Shown here in pieces: positions 29,938 to 36,022 of a stretch of DNA of 36,926 bases. The DNA is taken from the IMG/VR virus record IMGVR_UViG_3300037247_000922, positions 1 to 36,926 of that record; one strand, given 5' to 3'. The notes below the pieces were generated by a model that was given only the letters and a program-made list of their open reading frames with translations, searched no databases and had not been told where the DNA came from. Source of the stretch: a virus. Within the stretch, counting starts at the first letter, position 1; each line of letters opens with the position of its first letter. The position numbers and the translations under genes are program-made.

Positions 29938-31899
29938 TCAATCTTTTTTATAATAAGGTGTTAAATATCCGTCGGCTGCTAAAGGTAAACCTTTTGCCCA
30001 GTCCGGGGCTTTGCGCATATACGCCAGCATTAACTCCAAGTCGTCCTCCGCCCCGTAGCTTCCTATTTCGCAAACGGCTTCGTCGTGCACGTGCATAACT
30101 ATTTCAAAGTTATGACTTCTCAGCGTTTGCATGGAATAAGCCAACAAATCCCTGGCAATGGCCTGCACGATGTTTTCAACAAGTTTGCCCCCATAAGTGT
30201 CCACCCAGCCCCATTGTTTTGTATCTTGATTCGTGCCTTTGTACTTTATCGAAGTCTGCCCCCACTTGTTAACTGTGAAAGATGGGCTTTGGTAAAATAA
30301 TTTTCTTCCTGAAGGTAATTTAATAGTTAAGACTTTGCCGTCGTATTCAAATTCTAAACCCCTTGTACATATAATTTCATCAGTCTTTAAAGCTCTTTTT
30401 GCGGCTTCGTCTATTTCTTTCCAAAGTAAAACTATGTTGGGGTTTGCTGTCCGCCACTTTTTAACTATGTTTTTCATTTCGACGGTTTCCATCTCGATGT
30501 CGTAAGCTTCGCACATCACGGTAAGTGCCCCGACGCTGCCCTGGAAACCCAGGGCAAGCTCCGCAACCTTCCCGGTCTGTCTTAACTTCGATCCTTTAGT
30601 AACTTCCTCGATAGGGATGTTAAACATCATAGCAGCCGAAGCTTCATATATTTTACCATGGCCTCTAAAAACATCCATCCTCCAGGTCTCCCCCGCAAGC
30701 CATGCGATAACACGTGCCTCGATTGCCGAGAAGTCGGCAACAGCAAAAACGTGGCCGGGTTTAGCAACAAAAGCCGTTCTGATTAATTGCGAGAGCAGGG
30801 AAGAAATATCCTCGTATAGCATCGTAATTGTGTCATAGTCCCCTGAAGCGACTGCGCCCCGGGCAAAATCCAAATCCTTTAAATGATTTTGCGGCAGGTT
30901 TTGCAATTGCACCAAGCGACCCGCCCAACGCCCTGTACGGTTTGCCCCGTAGAACTGGAAAAGCCCGTGAGCTCTCCCGTCACCGCAAGCACAATTCAAC
31001 ATTGAATTATATTTTTTAGTGCTTGTCTTGGCAAGTTTTCTGCGAAAGTTTAGAGCGTCCGAAACAATCCCGGGCCCGGCTTCATCTATAAGGGGCTGCA
31101 ATTGTTCTTTTGCCAAAGTTGTTACTTCCTTTTTTAGCCTTTCACTCAGCCATTTTTTGAGCTGGGCGGGACTGTTCGGGTTCTCTAAACCTGTCAGTTT
31201 TATCATTTCTTCGAGCAGATACTTGGAGCGCCGGGTGTCGGTATCATATGCATTTTTGGCAAATTCTAAATCTATTAGAATACCCCGGTCGTTAATTTCT
31301 TGGTCAAGTAGATAGTTTTCCCTTTCGGATTCTGGCATTTCATAACCCGAAAGTATTCGGGTTACTTCCCGCTCCGTTTCTACATCTTGTATGCAATATT
31401 CTTTGAACTGTTCCCATTTTTCGGGGTTGTGTTCCAGTAGGTTTCGCAACCTGCCCCCGTTTGTTTTTGTAGGTTTGCAAGGTTTGCAAAAGTAATTTAT
31501 TAAAGTTGTACCTGTGTTTGACTTTCCTTTAGACCCTAAGCCCAGGGCTTTGGAAACGTCTTTTAAAGAAAGGGGCAAGCCACAATAAGCGCTTTTGACC
31601 ATGGAGCAATGCCATTGGCTTGCGGGGGTTTCATAACCTATTCTTTTAAATGCCTGTCTTTCAAAGTTTGCATTGTGTGCATGCTTTTTTATGTTTGGGT
31701 TTACCAAAGCTTCTGAAAATTCTCCTACGGGAGGTGCATGATATCCTGGGATCACTTCTATAATCTTTACAGGCCCATCGTCAAAAGCATAAGCGATTAA
31801 CAATATTTCGAAGTCCTCGCTTTCAATATATTTATAAGCCCCGGCTTTGCGTATGTCTACGGAGCTATAAGTCTCAATGTCAATGTGTAAATTTTTCAT
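29938..31899 (-). CDS. polA-like: DNA polymerase, family A
   Basis: A 653-residue enzyme. The 3'-5' exonuclease has Exo I HIDIETYS (5-12; Asp7, Glu9), Exo II HNANFERQAF (75-84) and Exo III YCIQDVETE (168-176). The polymerase domain has NRTGRWAGRLVQLQNLPQ (320-337), motif A VADFSAIEARVIAWLAGE (387-404), motif B RQTGKVAELALGFQG (440-454) and motif C HVHDE (603-607). The O-helix aromatic is Phe452 where many family members have Tyr; known work on family A links Phe there to discrimination against dideoxynucleotides. It begins 18 bases after the third tRNA-like element. Confidence 0.95.
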   Translation of the reverse strand: MKNLHIDIETYSSVDIRKAGAYKYIESEDFEILLIAYAFDDGPVKIIEVIPGYHAPPVGEFSEALVNPNIKKHAHNANFERQAFKRIGYETPASQWHCSMVKSAYCGLPLSLKDVSKALGLGSKGKSNTGTTLINYFCKPCKPTKTNGGRLRNLLEHNPEKWEQFKEYCIQDVETEREVTRILSGYEMPESERENYLLDQEINDRGILIDLEFAKNAYDTDTRRSKYLLEEMIKLTGLENPNSPAQLKKWLSERLKKEVTTLAKEQLQPLIDEAGPGIVSDALNFRRKLAKTSTKKYNSMLNCACGDGRAHGLFQFYGANRTGRWAGRLVQLQNLPQNHLKDLDFARGAVASGDYDTITMLYEDISSLLSQLIRTAFVAKPGHVFAVADFSAIEARVIAWLAGETWRMDVFRGHGKIYEASAAMMFNIPIEEVTKGSKLRQTGKVAELALGFQGSVGALTVMCEAYDIEMETVEMKNIVKKWRTANPNIVLLWKEIDEAAKRALKTDEIICTRGLEFEYDGKVLTIKLPSGRKLFYQSPSFTVNKWGQTSIKYKGTNQDTKQWGWVDTYGGKLVENIVQAIARDLLAYSMQTLRSHNFEIVMHVHDEAVCEIGSYGAEDDLELMLAYMRKAPDWAKGLPLAADGYLTPYYKKD

Positions 31900-31917
31900 A
31901 ATGTAGCGGTTTTAAAA

Positions 31918-32000
31918 TTAGGGGTTGCGACCTCATGACGGTTACGTCTTTGCATTAAACAGTTAACTAAACTGCCCAAAGGACTCGAACCTTACCCCTA
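31918..32000 (-). tRNA. tRNA-like element with T-arm-type hairpin on the 5' side
   Basis: On the minus strand TAGGGGT and ACCCCTA make a perfect 7-bp acceptor stem. After AA comes AAGG-TTCGAGT-CCTT, a textbook T-arm loop sequence, but at the D-arm position. Next is the hairpin GCAGT-TTAGTTA-ACTGT, with a 7-base loop and T in the T33 position (anticodon AGT if it were one), and then TGCAAAGACG and a small hairpin GACG-TAAC-CGTC. No T-arm precedes the 3' acceptor. It is not a normal cloverleaf; a permuted, decayed or mimic element are options. Confidence 0.45.
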
Positions 32001-32015
32001 ATGTTTTTAATTTTG

Positions 32016-32104
32016 CAGGGTTGCCAGGATTCGAACCTGGGGACGTTTCCGCCCATCCTTGCGCAACACGCAGCTTTTTAAGCTGCCCAGTTTTGCACAA
32101 CCCT
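32016..32104 (-). tRNA. tRNA-like element with long variable arm
   Basis: On the minus strand AGGGTTG and CAACCCT pair (7 bp), followed in the 3' part by a perfect T-arm CCAGG-TTCGAAT-CCTGG. A hairpin GCAGC-TTAAAAA-GCTGC has a 7-base loop (anticodon position AAA) and lies only 11 bases from the acceptor, so no D-arm fits. A variable arm GGGCG-GAAA-CGTCC has a GNRA tetraloop. GCGCAAGGATG before it resembles TTGCAAGGATAG in the next element. CCA is not encoded. The call is tRNA-like, not an assigned isoacceptor. Confidence 0.5.
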
Positions 32105-32107
32105 AAG

Positions 32108-32202
32108 ATAAAAAGTAAAGTGGGGTTGGCGGGATTCGAACCCTACTATCCTTGCAAAGTTCAGCTTAAACTCTACACAACCCCAAGTAATAAAAAGTAA
32201 AG
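32108..32202. repeat. 13-bp direct repeats around tRNA-like element 3
   Basis: ATAAAAAGTAAAG occurs exactly at 32108-32120 and 32190-32202. On the minus strand both copies give CTTTACTTTTTAT directly after a stable helix (the terminator hairpin and the acceptor of the 64-nt element), so each helix is followed by a T-rich tail. Confidence 0.8.
32121..32184 (-). tRNA. short tRNA-like element (64 nt)
   Basis: On the minus strand GGGGTTG and CAACCCC pair (7 bp), with discriminator A. The T-loop TTCGAAT is closed by three G-C pairs with mismatches outside. The only other clear hairpin is GAGTT-TAAGCTG-AACTT, whose loop lacks the T33 expected of an anticodon. At 64 nt it is too short for a D-arm and an anticodon arm together. 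It shares GGGTTGTG at the 5' end and GCAAGGAT with the neighbouring element, so the two are related. Confidence 0.5.
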
Positions 32203-32241
32203 CCCCAGACGTTATTGCAGTCTATCAAGGGGGGCTTTACT
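32196..32241 (-). terminator. 11-bp hairpin after the DUF2815 gene
   Basis: AGTAAAGCCCC (32196-32206) and GGGGCTTTACT (32231-32241) pair perfectly around a 24-base loop that holds a small AGAC/GTCT stem. On the minus strand the helix runs into ACTTTTTATT. It lies between the DUF2815 stop (32257) and the tRNA-like elements. It can be a leaky terminator or an RNA processing structure within the operon. Confidence 0.6.
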
Positions 32242-32256
32242 ATTTTGATTTAACCA

Positions 32257-32799
32257 CTACATCAAATCGTCTGTGTCCTCCCCGAAATCTTCCGCAGCCG
32301 TAGCTCCGCCACCTCCTAAGTTTTCGCCGTCCTCCAGTTTTTGAAGGTTATTAAGACCACAAGCAATACCTTTATTACCCCCTTTGTTGTAAGGGTAAAA
32401 ATTGATACTGGCACGACCATAACATCCCGAATAAAACTCCGAACGGTCGATAATTTCGTTTGTGTTTTCATCAACCAAACCCGGTTTTGTTGAACTTTTG
32501 GCACTTACGAAGAAACAATTTTCATACTCTTCCTTGTCAGGCATTTCTTCGTCCCCATCTCTTAGCGCTGGATAGCGATAAGTTTTTGGAATCTTACCCC
32601 CAAACGTTTTACTCTTGCCTTCGAGTTCTGCGGCTTTGATTGCTTTTTCGATTTTCGCAATTGTTACTTTATCCTTCTTAGGTATAAGAAGGGTTACACT
32701 GTATTTCGGCTCGGAGTTTTCGTCCATTGCTTTGGGCTCGAAAACCTGGGCGTAAGAAAATCTTATGCCTGGGCCGGTTACTACTTTAGTTTCACTCAT
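32257..32799 (-). CDS. DUF2815 ssDNA-binding protein
   Basis: A 180-residue protein (MSETKVVTGPGIRFSYAQVFEPKAMDENSEPKYSVTLLIPKKDK...) with the pattern of DUF2815, a phage OB-fold family viewed as single-strand DNA-binding protein. The C-terminus is Gly-rich and acidic (GGGGATAAEDFGEDTDDLM), like SSB tails that recruit partners. The start at 32799 lies after the upstream stop; the frame is open from 32868. It is part of the polymerase/exonuclease module. Confidence 0.8.
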   Translation of the reverse strand: MSETKVVTGPGIRFSYAQVFEPKAMDENSEPKYSVTLLIPKKDKVTIAKIEKAIKAAELEGKSKTFGGKIPKTYRYPALRDGDEEMPDKEEYENCFFVSAKSSTKPGLVDENTNEIIDRSEFYSGCYGRASINFYPYNKGGNKGIACGLNNLQKLEDGENLGGGGATAAEDFGEDTDDLM

Positions 32800-32815
32800 T
32801 TGTTTTATTTTTAAA

Positions 32816-33985
32816 TTATTTAAAATCTTCTTTTGCCTGTTCGATACCAAGGGCTTTGCGCTTATCACTTTGGTCCACTAATGTAGGTTTGCCTACGGGT
32901 TTGATTACCAAAGCCCCTAAGAGTTCATTAAAATCTTTTTTACCGACAAGCTTCTCAATGTCCCCTATACCTTTAAGTTTCAAACTCAAAATTTCTGAGT
33001 CTTCGTACAAGTTGAGAATTTCTTTTACTTTGTCGTCGTCTTTCCATTTTCGATTACTTCGACCCTCTACGAGTTTCAACCCCGCCCACTTCTTGCCTGC
33101 TAAAGCTTCTTTAAGAAGGTATTCCGCAACGGATTTAATCCAGTCGGCTATCATAGGGTTGTCTTTGTGCACAGTCAACAACTGTTCATCTGTTAACAAG
33201 TGTGGGCTTTTAAATTCGTGCTTTGCAACTTTCAAGCTTTGGCTTGCCAGGGTTGCACACCTTGCTTTGGCTTTACACCATTTGCACCAAGACCCCGCAT
33301 ATTGTATGCCTTCACCCTTGTACGCTTGTTCAGCTTTGGGTTTCACAATACCTTCGCCCCACTGAACTAAATCCTTTGCAGAAATTTCCCAGGTTGAAAT
33401 ATGATCTAAACGGGGCTGCATAATATTTAAACGTACCGTTTCAATATCGTACATCATATCAAAAGCATCCAGAGCGCCAAGGGCATAAAGCTTAAGTTGT
33501 GGGTTGTCGTCTGCATCAACTTTCAAGCCTTTGCCATATTTAAGGTCGATCACATCCATAACCCCGTCCGCGATGATAATTGCATCGCAGGTACCGAAGC
33601 CCTTTTCAATGTAAGCGCCCAGGTCTACTTTCTCTTCTATGAGAAGAACGGCGCCGGGTGTTTTCTTCTTTGCGATTGCAAAAACTTCCAAAACAAAGTT
33701 TACATACTTTTGAACTTCGCCGTCCATCTCCGGGCTATAGAGTTCATGCTTTTTTTGTTTGTTTACTTTGTCCCTGTACTGCCGGGCATTTAAAATGCCC
33801 GCAGCTTTCTGGAGACTTAGGTCTCCGAATTCATGTGCCAAAGTACCCTCGGCAGCAAACACGCTGCTCCCCGGGTCTTTGAAGTCCTCTTCGAGCCTTG
33901 CCGAGGGTGTGCAGTTAAGCCACCTGGAAGCACCCGAAGCACTTAAAAGGGCGTGAGCCCTTTCACTGTGTTTAGGCCCTGCCAT
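32816..33985 (-). CDS. DUF2800 RecB/Cas4-like nuclease with Fe-S cysteines
   Basis: A 389-residue protein of the DUF2800 family, related to RecB/Cas4 exonucleases. Active-site residues are visible: His51, Asp134 in GFGTCD, Asp147 and Lys149 in DVIDLKYG, and Gln163. Four cysteines, Cys25 plus CKWCKAKARC (234, 237, 243), have the C-Xn-CX2CX5C spacing of the Cas4/AddB iron-sulphur cluster. It would process DNA ends for recombination with the neighbouring DUF2815 protein. The next gene upstream ends at its start. Confidence 0.8.
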   Translation of the reverse strand: MAGPKHSERAHALLSASGASRWLNCTPSARLEEDFKDPGSSVFAAEGTLAHEFGDLSLQKAAGILNARQYRDKVNKQKKHELYSPEMDGEVQKYVNFVLEVFAIAKKKTPGAVLLIEEKVDLGAYIEKGFGTCDAIIIADGVMDVIDLKYGKGLKVDADDNPQLKLYALGALDAFDMMYDIETVRLNIMQPRLDHISTWEISAKDLVQWGEGIVKPKAEQAYKGEGIQYAGSWCKWCKAKARCATLASQSLKVAKHEFKSPHLLTDEQLLTVHKDNPMIADWIKSVAEYLLKEALAGKKWAGLKLVEGRSNRKWKDDDKVKEILNLYEDSEILSLKLKGIGDIEKLVGKKDFNELLGALVIKPVGKPTLVDQSDKRKALGIEQAKEDFK

Positions 33986-35135: not shown

Positions 35136-35447
35136 ATGGAAACAATTGAAAAAGATTTAAATTTAATACTGGATTACTCGACTAAAGAAACAAGCCGGAA
35201 TATTAAAACGCTTAAGGGTCTCGCTGTGATGGAAACCGAGGTAGAACAAAGTATTGAACTCCTTAATACGTTAGGGTACCTATCGGAGGGGGTTTCTTTT
35301 GAAAAAGGGTCTGTAAATTTAAAAGGGGTGAACTACGGGTATTCTTTACCTTATAATACGCTGCCTTATATGGTTGCGGGTTTTTTACAAAACAAAACTA
35401 AGTACAGGACTAAAAGTGCAGTATTATATAAAGCACGGACAAGATGA
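35136..35447 (+). CDS. early protein of unknown function
   Basis: A 103-residue protein (METIEKDLNLILDYSTKETSRNIKTLKGLAVMETEVEQSIELLNTLGYLSEG...). A helical N-terminus, possibly a winged-helix-like or other helical fold, and a short beta C-terminal part. It is the first gene of the rightward early operon, opposite the HTH gene, which is where a Cro-like antagonist or anti-repressor is often found. ATGA overlap with the exonuclease. Confidence 0.6.
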   Translation: METIEKDLNLILDYSTKETSRNIKTLKGLAVMETEVEQSIELLNTLGYLSEGVSFEKGSVNLKGVNYGYSLPYNTLPYMVAGFLQNKTKYRTKSAVLYKARTR

Positions 35448-36022
35448 TAAAAATATTCTTTGATTTAGAAACCACGGGTCTGAATGTTAAAAAACATTCG
35501 GTGCACCAAATCGCCGGGCTAATAGAAATTGACGGCGGAGTTGTCGAAACCTTCGACATAAAAACAAGGCCACACCTGAAAGCTGAACTGGACACACAAG
35601 CACTTAAGATTTGTAATAAGACGGAGGCAGAGCTTTTGGCTTACCCGGAAATGAACCAGGCACACTTTATATTTTCGAGGACACTTCGTAAATATATTGA
35701 CAAGTATAATCCTAAAGACAAAGCTTTCCTAATTGGTTTCAATGCCTCACATTTTGACTGCACTTTCTTGCGTGCCTGGTTCGAACAGAACAACGATAGT
35801 TTTTTTGACTCCTGGTTTTGGAAGAGCGAAATTGATGTGATGAGCTTGGCAGCCCAATACTTACTCGCTAGGCGAGTAAACATGCCAAGCTTTAAACTTA
35901 AACGTGTTGCAATGGAATTGGGTATAGAAGTAAACGCAGGGCGTTTACACGACGCTTTATACGATGTGGAATTGACCAGGGGGGTTTATAGGATAATAAC
36001 AGGGTTGGAGGTTGAGTTATGA
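35444..36022 (+). CDS. DnaQ-type 3'-5' exonuclease
   Basis: A 192-residue DEDD-family exonuclease. Exo I is FFDLETTG (5-12; Asp7, Glu9), Exo II is FNASHFDCTFLR (99-110; Asp105), and Exo III is RLHDALYDVELTR (167-179; His169, Asp174), the HxAxxD-type pattern. It could be a DNA or RNA trimming enzyme. The polymerase already has its own proofreading domain, so a separate role is likely. It lies in an early operon with small genes, overlapped by ATGA on both sides. Confidence 0.88.
   Translation: MIKIFFDLETTGLNVKKHSVHQIAGLIEIDGGVVETFDIKTRPHLKAELDTQALKICNKTEAELLAYPEMNQAHFIFSRTLRKYIDKYNPKDKAFLIGFNASHFDCTFLRAWFEQNNDSFFDSWFWKSEIDVMSLAAQYLLARRVNMPSFKLKRVAMELGIEVNAGRLHDALYDVELTRGVYRIITGLEVEL

Follow-up and report, generated by a model that had tools for sequence, protein, structure and literature searches.

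What function do tRNA-like sequences serve between a single-stranded DNA-binding protein gene and a DNA polymerase gene of a phage when they do not fold as normal cloverleaves? The question is raised by a 36.9-kb phage record, analysed here as a whole (36,926 nucleotides, the window), in which a first-pass annotation described three tandem elements on the minus strand and regarded them as possible tRNAs lacking a D-arm, tRNAs in decay, or mimics of tRNA through which host RNase P and RNase Z would cut the polycistronic message. Its placement of the elements between a DUF2815 gene and a polymerase gene is borne out by profile matches to both neighbours. The longest frame of the DUF2815 gene begins at a GTG and extends to 32868. 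Among cultured phages, the nearest polymerases belong to Croceibacter phage P2559Y (59%) and to Bacteroides phages, e.g. BF486P2 (53%), and the hosts are probably Bacteroidota, assigned for most contigs solely via cultured relatives. The features of the locus, from the upstream to the downstream gene, are as follows.

32257..32832, minus strand: upstream gene, DUF2815 / Gp2.5-like ssDNA-binding and annealing protein (ssb); phrog_112, E 7e-69; ATG start
32192..32228, minus strand: terminator-like hairpin AAAGCCCC...GGGGCTTT, then ACTTTTT; read directly from the sequence
32121..32184, minus strand: tRNA-like element 1; 17.2 bits to RF00005; folding z-score -3.3
32184-32178 / 32128-32122, minus strand: acceptor of element 1; N73 = A at 32121
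32174-32156, minus strand: hairpin AGAGTT-TAAGCTG-AACTTT of element 1
32155-32148, minus strand: GCAAGGAT of element 1
32140-32134, minus strand: T-loop TTCGAAT of element 1
32016..32104, minus strand: tRNA-like element 2; 31.7 bits to RF00005; folding z-score -3.75
32104-32098 / 32023-32017, minus strand: acceptor of element 2; N73 = G at 32016
32086-32070, minus strand: anticodon-like arm GCAGC-TTAAAAA-GCTGC of element 2
32062-32055, minus strand: GCAAGGAT of element 2
32054-32041, minus strand: extra hairpin GGGCG-GAAA-CGTCC of element 2
32040-32024, minus strand: T-arm of element 2; D-arm absent
31917..32002, minus strand: element 3; folding z-score -2.5; suggestive homology to element 2 (6/1000 shuffles)
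32002-31994 / 31925-31917, minus strand: 9-bp closing stem of element 3
29938..31899, minus strand: downstream gene, family A DNA polymerase; phrog_17, E 5e-139

Elements 1 and 2 possess perfect 7-bp acceptors (GGGGTTG/CAACCCC and AGGGTTG/CAACCCT), the terminal pair being G1-C72 in one copy and A1-T72 in the other. Their TTCGAAT T-loops, which fit the tRNA pattern TTCRANY, are in the normal register, with the T-arm stacked directly on the acceptor, and the conserved GCAAGGAT lies between the anticodon-like hairpin and the T-arm, both as originally described. The lack of a D-arm, which extends to all three elements, is supported for these two by the sequence and by the covariance model. The T-stem of element 1 is damaged and retains only three good pairs, and the 7-nt loop of element 2, TTAAAAA, would read AAA; anticodons with A34 are avoided by bacteria. 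The two elements are homologous, since none of 1000 shuffles reached their alignment score, and represent diverged tandem copies, spacer CTTTACTTTTTAT included. The window contains four copies of the motif GTTCGANTC, where 0.8 would be expected, and three of them fall at this locus.

ARAGORN finds no tRNA in the window, and Rfam with default filters gives no match there. In a permissive Rfam search, element 2 exceeds the RF00005 cut-off of 29 bits in an alignment that lacks the D-stem and places 27 inserted nt ahead of the T-arm, and element 1 stays below it (scores above). No standard cloverleaf with a D-arm was recovered among the window elements. Weak Rfam matches to RAGATH-36 and ohsC, far below cut-off, were rejected as window families, and the combination of GCAAGGAT with the T-loop was abandoned as a collection-wide pattern, the matches listed being too unspecific for use.

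Element 3 is a weaker case than elements 1 and 2. It has a stable fold, yet is no tRNA by the covariance model, which gives no match to it. The perfect 7-bp acceptor initially ascribed to all three elements holds for the first two, while element 3 is closed by a 9-bp stem. Its T-like hairpin, AAGG-TTCGAGT-CCTT, has a 4-bp stem and sits on the 5' side, where the D-arm should be; an anticodon-like hairpin (CAGTT-TAGTT-AACTG) and a small hairpin (GACG-TAAC-CGTC) are also present. Element 3 is possibly a rearranged third copy; a circular permutation was rejected, acceptor halves that fit being absent. The distance from its stem end at 31917 to the polymerase ATG at 31899 is 17 nt, and the 18 bases reported earlier apply if the element ends at 31918.

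The locus was compared across 219 distinct contigs, 125 of which carry a DUF2815 gene directly before the polymerase gene. One to three elements occupy the gap in 58 of these 125, and elements were found in 12 of the 94 contigs with a different or unidentified upstream gene. A scan for a T-arm plus acceptor that ignores the interior yielded 31 matches in 106 kb upstream of polymerase genes versus 4.4 in block-shuffled sequence. Gaps with elements measure 112-1059 nt, and those without are mostly shorter than 110 nt, reaching up to 703. In a covariance search of 37 whole records, all placeable significant tRNA matches fall at the ssb-pol junction, with no tRNA match elsewhere in these records or in the scanned flanks, the covariance search being blind to large inserts. 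Presence is patchy, as 67 of the 125 contigs, including that of the closest relative (L001), have no element, which indicates that the elements are dispensable. No complete tRNA is reported for rumen phages related to P2559Y (PMC5723332), and searches of the open-access literature, which misses most subscription papers, gave no description of such phage elements. One relative of the window phage (L016:76-125 and 131-337) has a 207-nt tRNA-like element before its polymerase gene; its contig is filed under a Candidatus Nomurabacteria genome bin, possibly through a binning error.

Across the relatives, elements range from 39 to about 240 nt, and the acceptor and T-arm are nearly universal. When 118 T-arms were picked blind to the acceptor, 79 had a strict acceptor partner versus 9.7 expected with the acceptor strand shuffled (the contigs were partly de-duplicated and the shuffle control is equally redundant), and nearly all of the remainder show 5-6 acceptor pairs or several G-U pairs. 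Non-Watson-Crick pairs in the T-stems comprise 23 G-U pairs versus 3 mismatches, and G-U was not credited during selection of the arms, which indicates that selection acts on RNA pairing. A D-arm with a 4-bp stem and GG loop is present in 47/87 elements versus 7.7 in shuffles, whereas a canonical anticodon arm occurs in only 8/87, near the chance level of 3.9. The anticodon domains are deleted, filled by inserts or broken in other ways, and U at position 33 is found in 13/47. The D-armless reading fits elements 1 and 2 locally, but many relatives retain a D-arm, and it is the anticodon arm that they lack. The same classifier recovers canonical anticodon arms in most tRNAs of crAss001 and T4, for which ARAGORN annotates 23 and 8, respectively; it is home-made and imperfect, so that single canonical calls may err, while the contrast with these controls does not depend on single cases. 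In the 70 element-bearing contigs, ARAGORN assigned 15 anticodons, several of them implausible (ata, atg, aat, tta). The 3' tail after N73 is also conserved, with C74 in 71/80, A or T75 in 72/80 and A76 in 71/80, compared with C74 in 30/103 spurious antisense matches. The 39-nt elements, in L494, L495 and L547, consist of the acceptor and T-arm only.

RNase P, RNase Z and the CCA-adding enzyme recognise the acceptor/T-arm body of a tRNA, whereas the ribosome needs the anticodon part, which is lost here. The features of an RNase P / RNase Z punctuation element, namely the acceptor plus T-arm helix and a 3' end with N73-C74, are present. As the parts gripped by these enzymes are kept and a working anticodon loop is gone, the elements probably serve as cut marks or scaffolds in phage RNA and not in protein synthesis. 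The reading favoured here, with a probability of about 0.45, is that they are tRNA-derived, non-decoding RNAs that host maturation enzymes would recognise, thereby cutting the ssb-pol transcript; judged from sequence, such message-cutting mimicry is the best supported of the three initial proposals, ahead of decay. The elements would form part of the transcription unit of ssb and polymerase in phages that probably infect Bacteroidota, and they would have kept the acceptor with its stacked T-arm, the N73-C-(A/T)-A tail and, in many cases, the D-arm because RNase P, on the 5' side, and RNase Z, on the 3' side, recognise exactly those parts. The anticodon domain, unneeded by these enzymes, could then be deleted, filled by inserts or replaced. 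Cutting of the polycistronic transcript at the element would separate the ssb mRNA from the polymerase mRNA, so that only a short leader would precede the next start codon and a stable RNA of tRNA-like form would be released as by-product. Structure, position, conservation and the loss of decoding features are observed; that the elements are transcribed and cut, and that this affects expression, is inferred.

The position of the elements agrees with such a role. In 33/66 phages, 12-45 nt lie between the last element and the polymerase start, and about a dozen others have a small ORF that begins 22-59 nt behind the element. A distance of 12-45 nt leaves little room for a promoter. In many phages, the element and the following mRNA must therefore share one transcript, and tRNA-like processing of the element, if it occurs, would cut the message at that point. 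Position -1 is U in 29/80, a weak match to the known preference of RNase P. The terminator-like hairpin, located between the ssb stop and element 1 in the window and before the first element in many relatives, implies that a transcript shared with ssb would have to read through it. A hairpin about as far from the polymerase gene is present in relatives that have no element, so that spacing alone is no proof of cutting. Furthermore, processing alone should not call for D-arms, nor for the conserved inserts of one subfamily.

Whether the elements are instead captured tRNA genes in decay, with the anticodon arm lost first, can be judged from how they diverge. Such an origin would fit the differing isotypes that they recall (Gln, Leu, Ser, Glu, Cys), the few canonical tRNAs at the same place (L038 Gln TTG, 61.6 bits; L474 Cys GCA; L406 Ser GCT), the damaged T-stem of element 1 and the patchy presence. 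However, pairing is kept in the relatives. In a family with inserts (L383, L384, L396, L403, L395), 11 of 27 pairs change on both sides, with cases in the acceptor, D-arm, anticodon stem, insert hairpin and T-arm; 97% of cells are paired, and a slid-structure control gives at most 3 double-changed pairs. In a family already lacking the anticodon arm (L543, L433, L505, L540), 6/11 pairs are compensatory and every cell is paired; the two families are small, with 5 and 4 sequences, respectively. L543 and L433 share 47/57 bases when their polymerase 4-fold sites are 36% identical, and L383 and L396 share 91/106 with 4-fold sites at 42%. For L494, L495 and L547 the surrounding non-coding DNA is conserved too, and the element is therefore not singled out there. 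Compensatory change and conservation at saturated synonymous divergence thus count against decay in the tested families of relatives. The unpaired C-A/T-A tail, kept in about 90% per position, and the use of one locus across phages with polymerases 50-60% identical also make decay an unlikely explanation. It is less likely still that the elements are functional tRNAs that regain an anticodon loop once an unfamiliar type of intron is removed. With introns allowed, ARAGORN does find tRNAs with 2-119 nt inserts at many loci, and an anticodon stem flanks the insert in 20/87 elements versus 9.4 expected. Nevertheless, no group I intron or other Rfam family was detected in ten insert-bearing loci up to E = 1, U33 is not kept, the anticodons are implausible (A34, stop), and forms without any anticodon arm could not be restored by intron removal. 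In addition, the acceptor sequence drifts freely within the insert family, including the pairs that set amino-acid identity, which speaks against a fixed identity.

Less likely than message cutting, though ahead of decay, is a function in trans, in which the elements would be stable small RNAs of tRNA-like form; the scaffold would protect the ends and display a regulatory sequence instead of the anticodon, or titrate a host factor that binds tRNA elbows. A gut subfamily (L046, L384, L385, L396, L403, L044, L387, L043) contains a conserved hairpin in the anticodon-stem insert, the loop and 3' side of which could base-pair with the start codon of the following 44-47 codon ORF (for example, TTCCATAAT with ATTATGGAA and TCCATAATACT with AGTATTATGGA). 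The complementarity is seen in 8/8 members at p 0.003-0.05 versus dinucleotide shuffles, the p-values not being independent since the members are homologous. The insert and the start region differ together between the two branches of the subfamily, and the insert hairpin and its flanking stem show compensatory changes. On the other hand, the complementarity is not general (mean rank of own versus other start regions 0.47, 70 phages), the best downstream target of several gut members is not the start region, and elements of 39-55 nt carry little or no payload. A related and somewhat doubtful proposal holds that phages repeatedly turn captured tRNA genes, at one fixed junction, into non-decoding devices with a payload in place of the anticodon loop; the tRNA body would supply processed ends and stability, and the payload, in one gut subfamily, would be an antisense loop against the next start codon. 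Two further antisense candidates were dropped, as that of L399 was striking in a wide target region and lost in a narrow one (760/3000 shuffles), and the stronger L387/L043 duplexes inside the polymerase gene were not compelling (1/60 shuffles). An insert loop able to pair with the start codon region of such an ORF of 44-47 codons, sited between element and polymerase gene, was noted in L383, L384, L385, L396, L403, L395, L387 and L388.

Nearest in kind to the ssb-pol elements is the T4 species 1 RNA (rnaC, with its neighbour rnaD), a phage-encoded stable RNA from a tRNA cluster; the likeness is one of resemblance alone, a T-arm and acceptor-like ends around a non-tRNA interior. In the 139-nt rnaC, the T-arm (CCGGG-TTCGAAT-CCCGG) is perfect, the acceptor behind it is degenerate (5/7 with its best partner) and the interior is long and not that of a tRNA; it is annotated just as a small stable RNA. 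It is, however, a single RNA of a T4-type phage, among real tRNAs and with an imperfect acceptor, whereas the ssb-pol elements replace tRNAs at their junction and have perfect acceptors. In mitochondrial tRNA punctuation and in plant mitochondrial t-elements, which are tRNA-like structures located at the ends of mRNAs, acceptor/T-arm structures between genes allow RNase P and RNase Z to free the mRNAs. The arrangement is alike, but in organelles the cleavage has been demonstrated, while we infer it for the phage elements. Canonical phage tRNAs of crAss001 and T4 share the acceptor/T-arm geometry, and crAss001 also encodes the N-C-A/T tail, yet nearly all of them have a 7-nt anticodon loop with a readable anticodon, which the ssb-pol elements mostly lack. 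Armless mitochondrial tRNAs are similarly small and have lost cloverleaf arms; it is D- or T-arms that they lack, the anticodon being retained, in contrast to most ssb-pol relatives, which lose the anticodon arm. An unannotated tRNA-Tyr-like element was noticed in crAss001 (L588:4141-4234), with the anticodon arm GCAGA-CTGTAAA-TCTGC, no D-arm and a long variable region, the layout of window element 2; it was missed by ARAGORN and by the record annotation.

If the favoured reading of the elements as non-decoding cut marks is true, they would constitute a widespread unannotated class of phage RNA, missed by tRNA finders or mislabelled with odd anticodons, and counts of phage tRNA genes would include RNAs that never decode. 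Phages would then join organelles in the use of tRNA punctuation, and a role would suggest itself for RNAs that have long lacked an explanation, the T4 species 1 RNA among them. Since Croceibacter phage P2559Y and Bacteroides phage BF486P2 are cultured examples, the proposal is directly testable.

Elsewhere in the window, positions 35444-36022 on the opposite, plus strand encode a DEDD-type exonuclease (Pfam RNase_T, 5e-14; PHROG DNA polymerase exonuclease subunit), and among the window proteins scanned there is no RtcB, RNA ligase or other tRNA repair or splicing product. The same intergenic gap holds further conserved sequences in other phages. A block around TTTTTTGGTTTAAAAAAGTTAATCTTAGACCCG (L003:3862, L027:1994, L029:3869, L040:3864 and 8 more loci) could be a promoter or belong to a further structured RNA. 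In L019 (1931-2488), L023 and L030, the tRNA-like element is separated from the polymerase gene by 550-580 nt of non-coding sequence that is conserved and may likewise represent another structured RNA.
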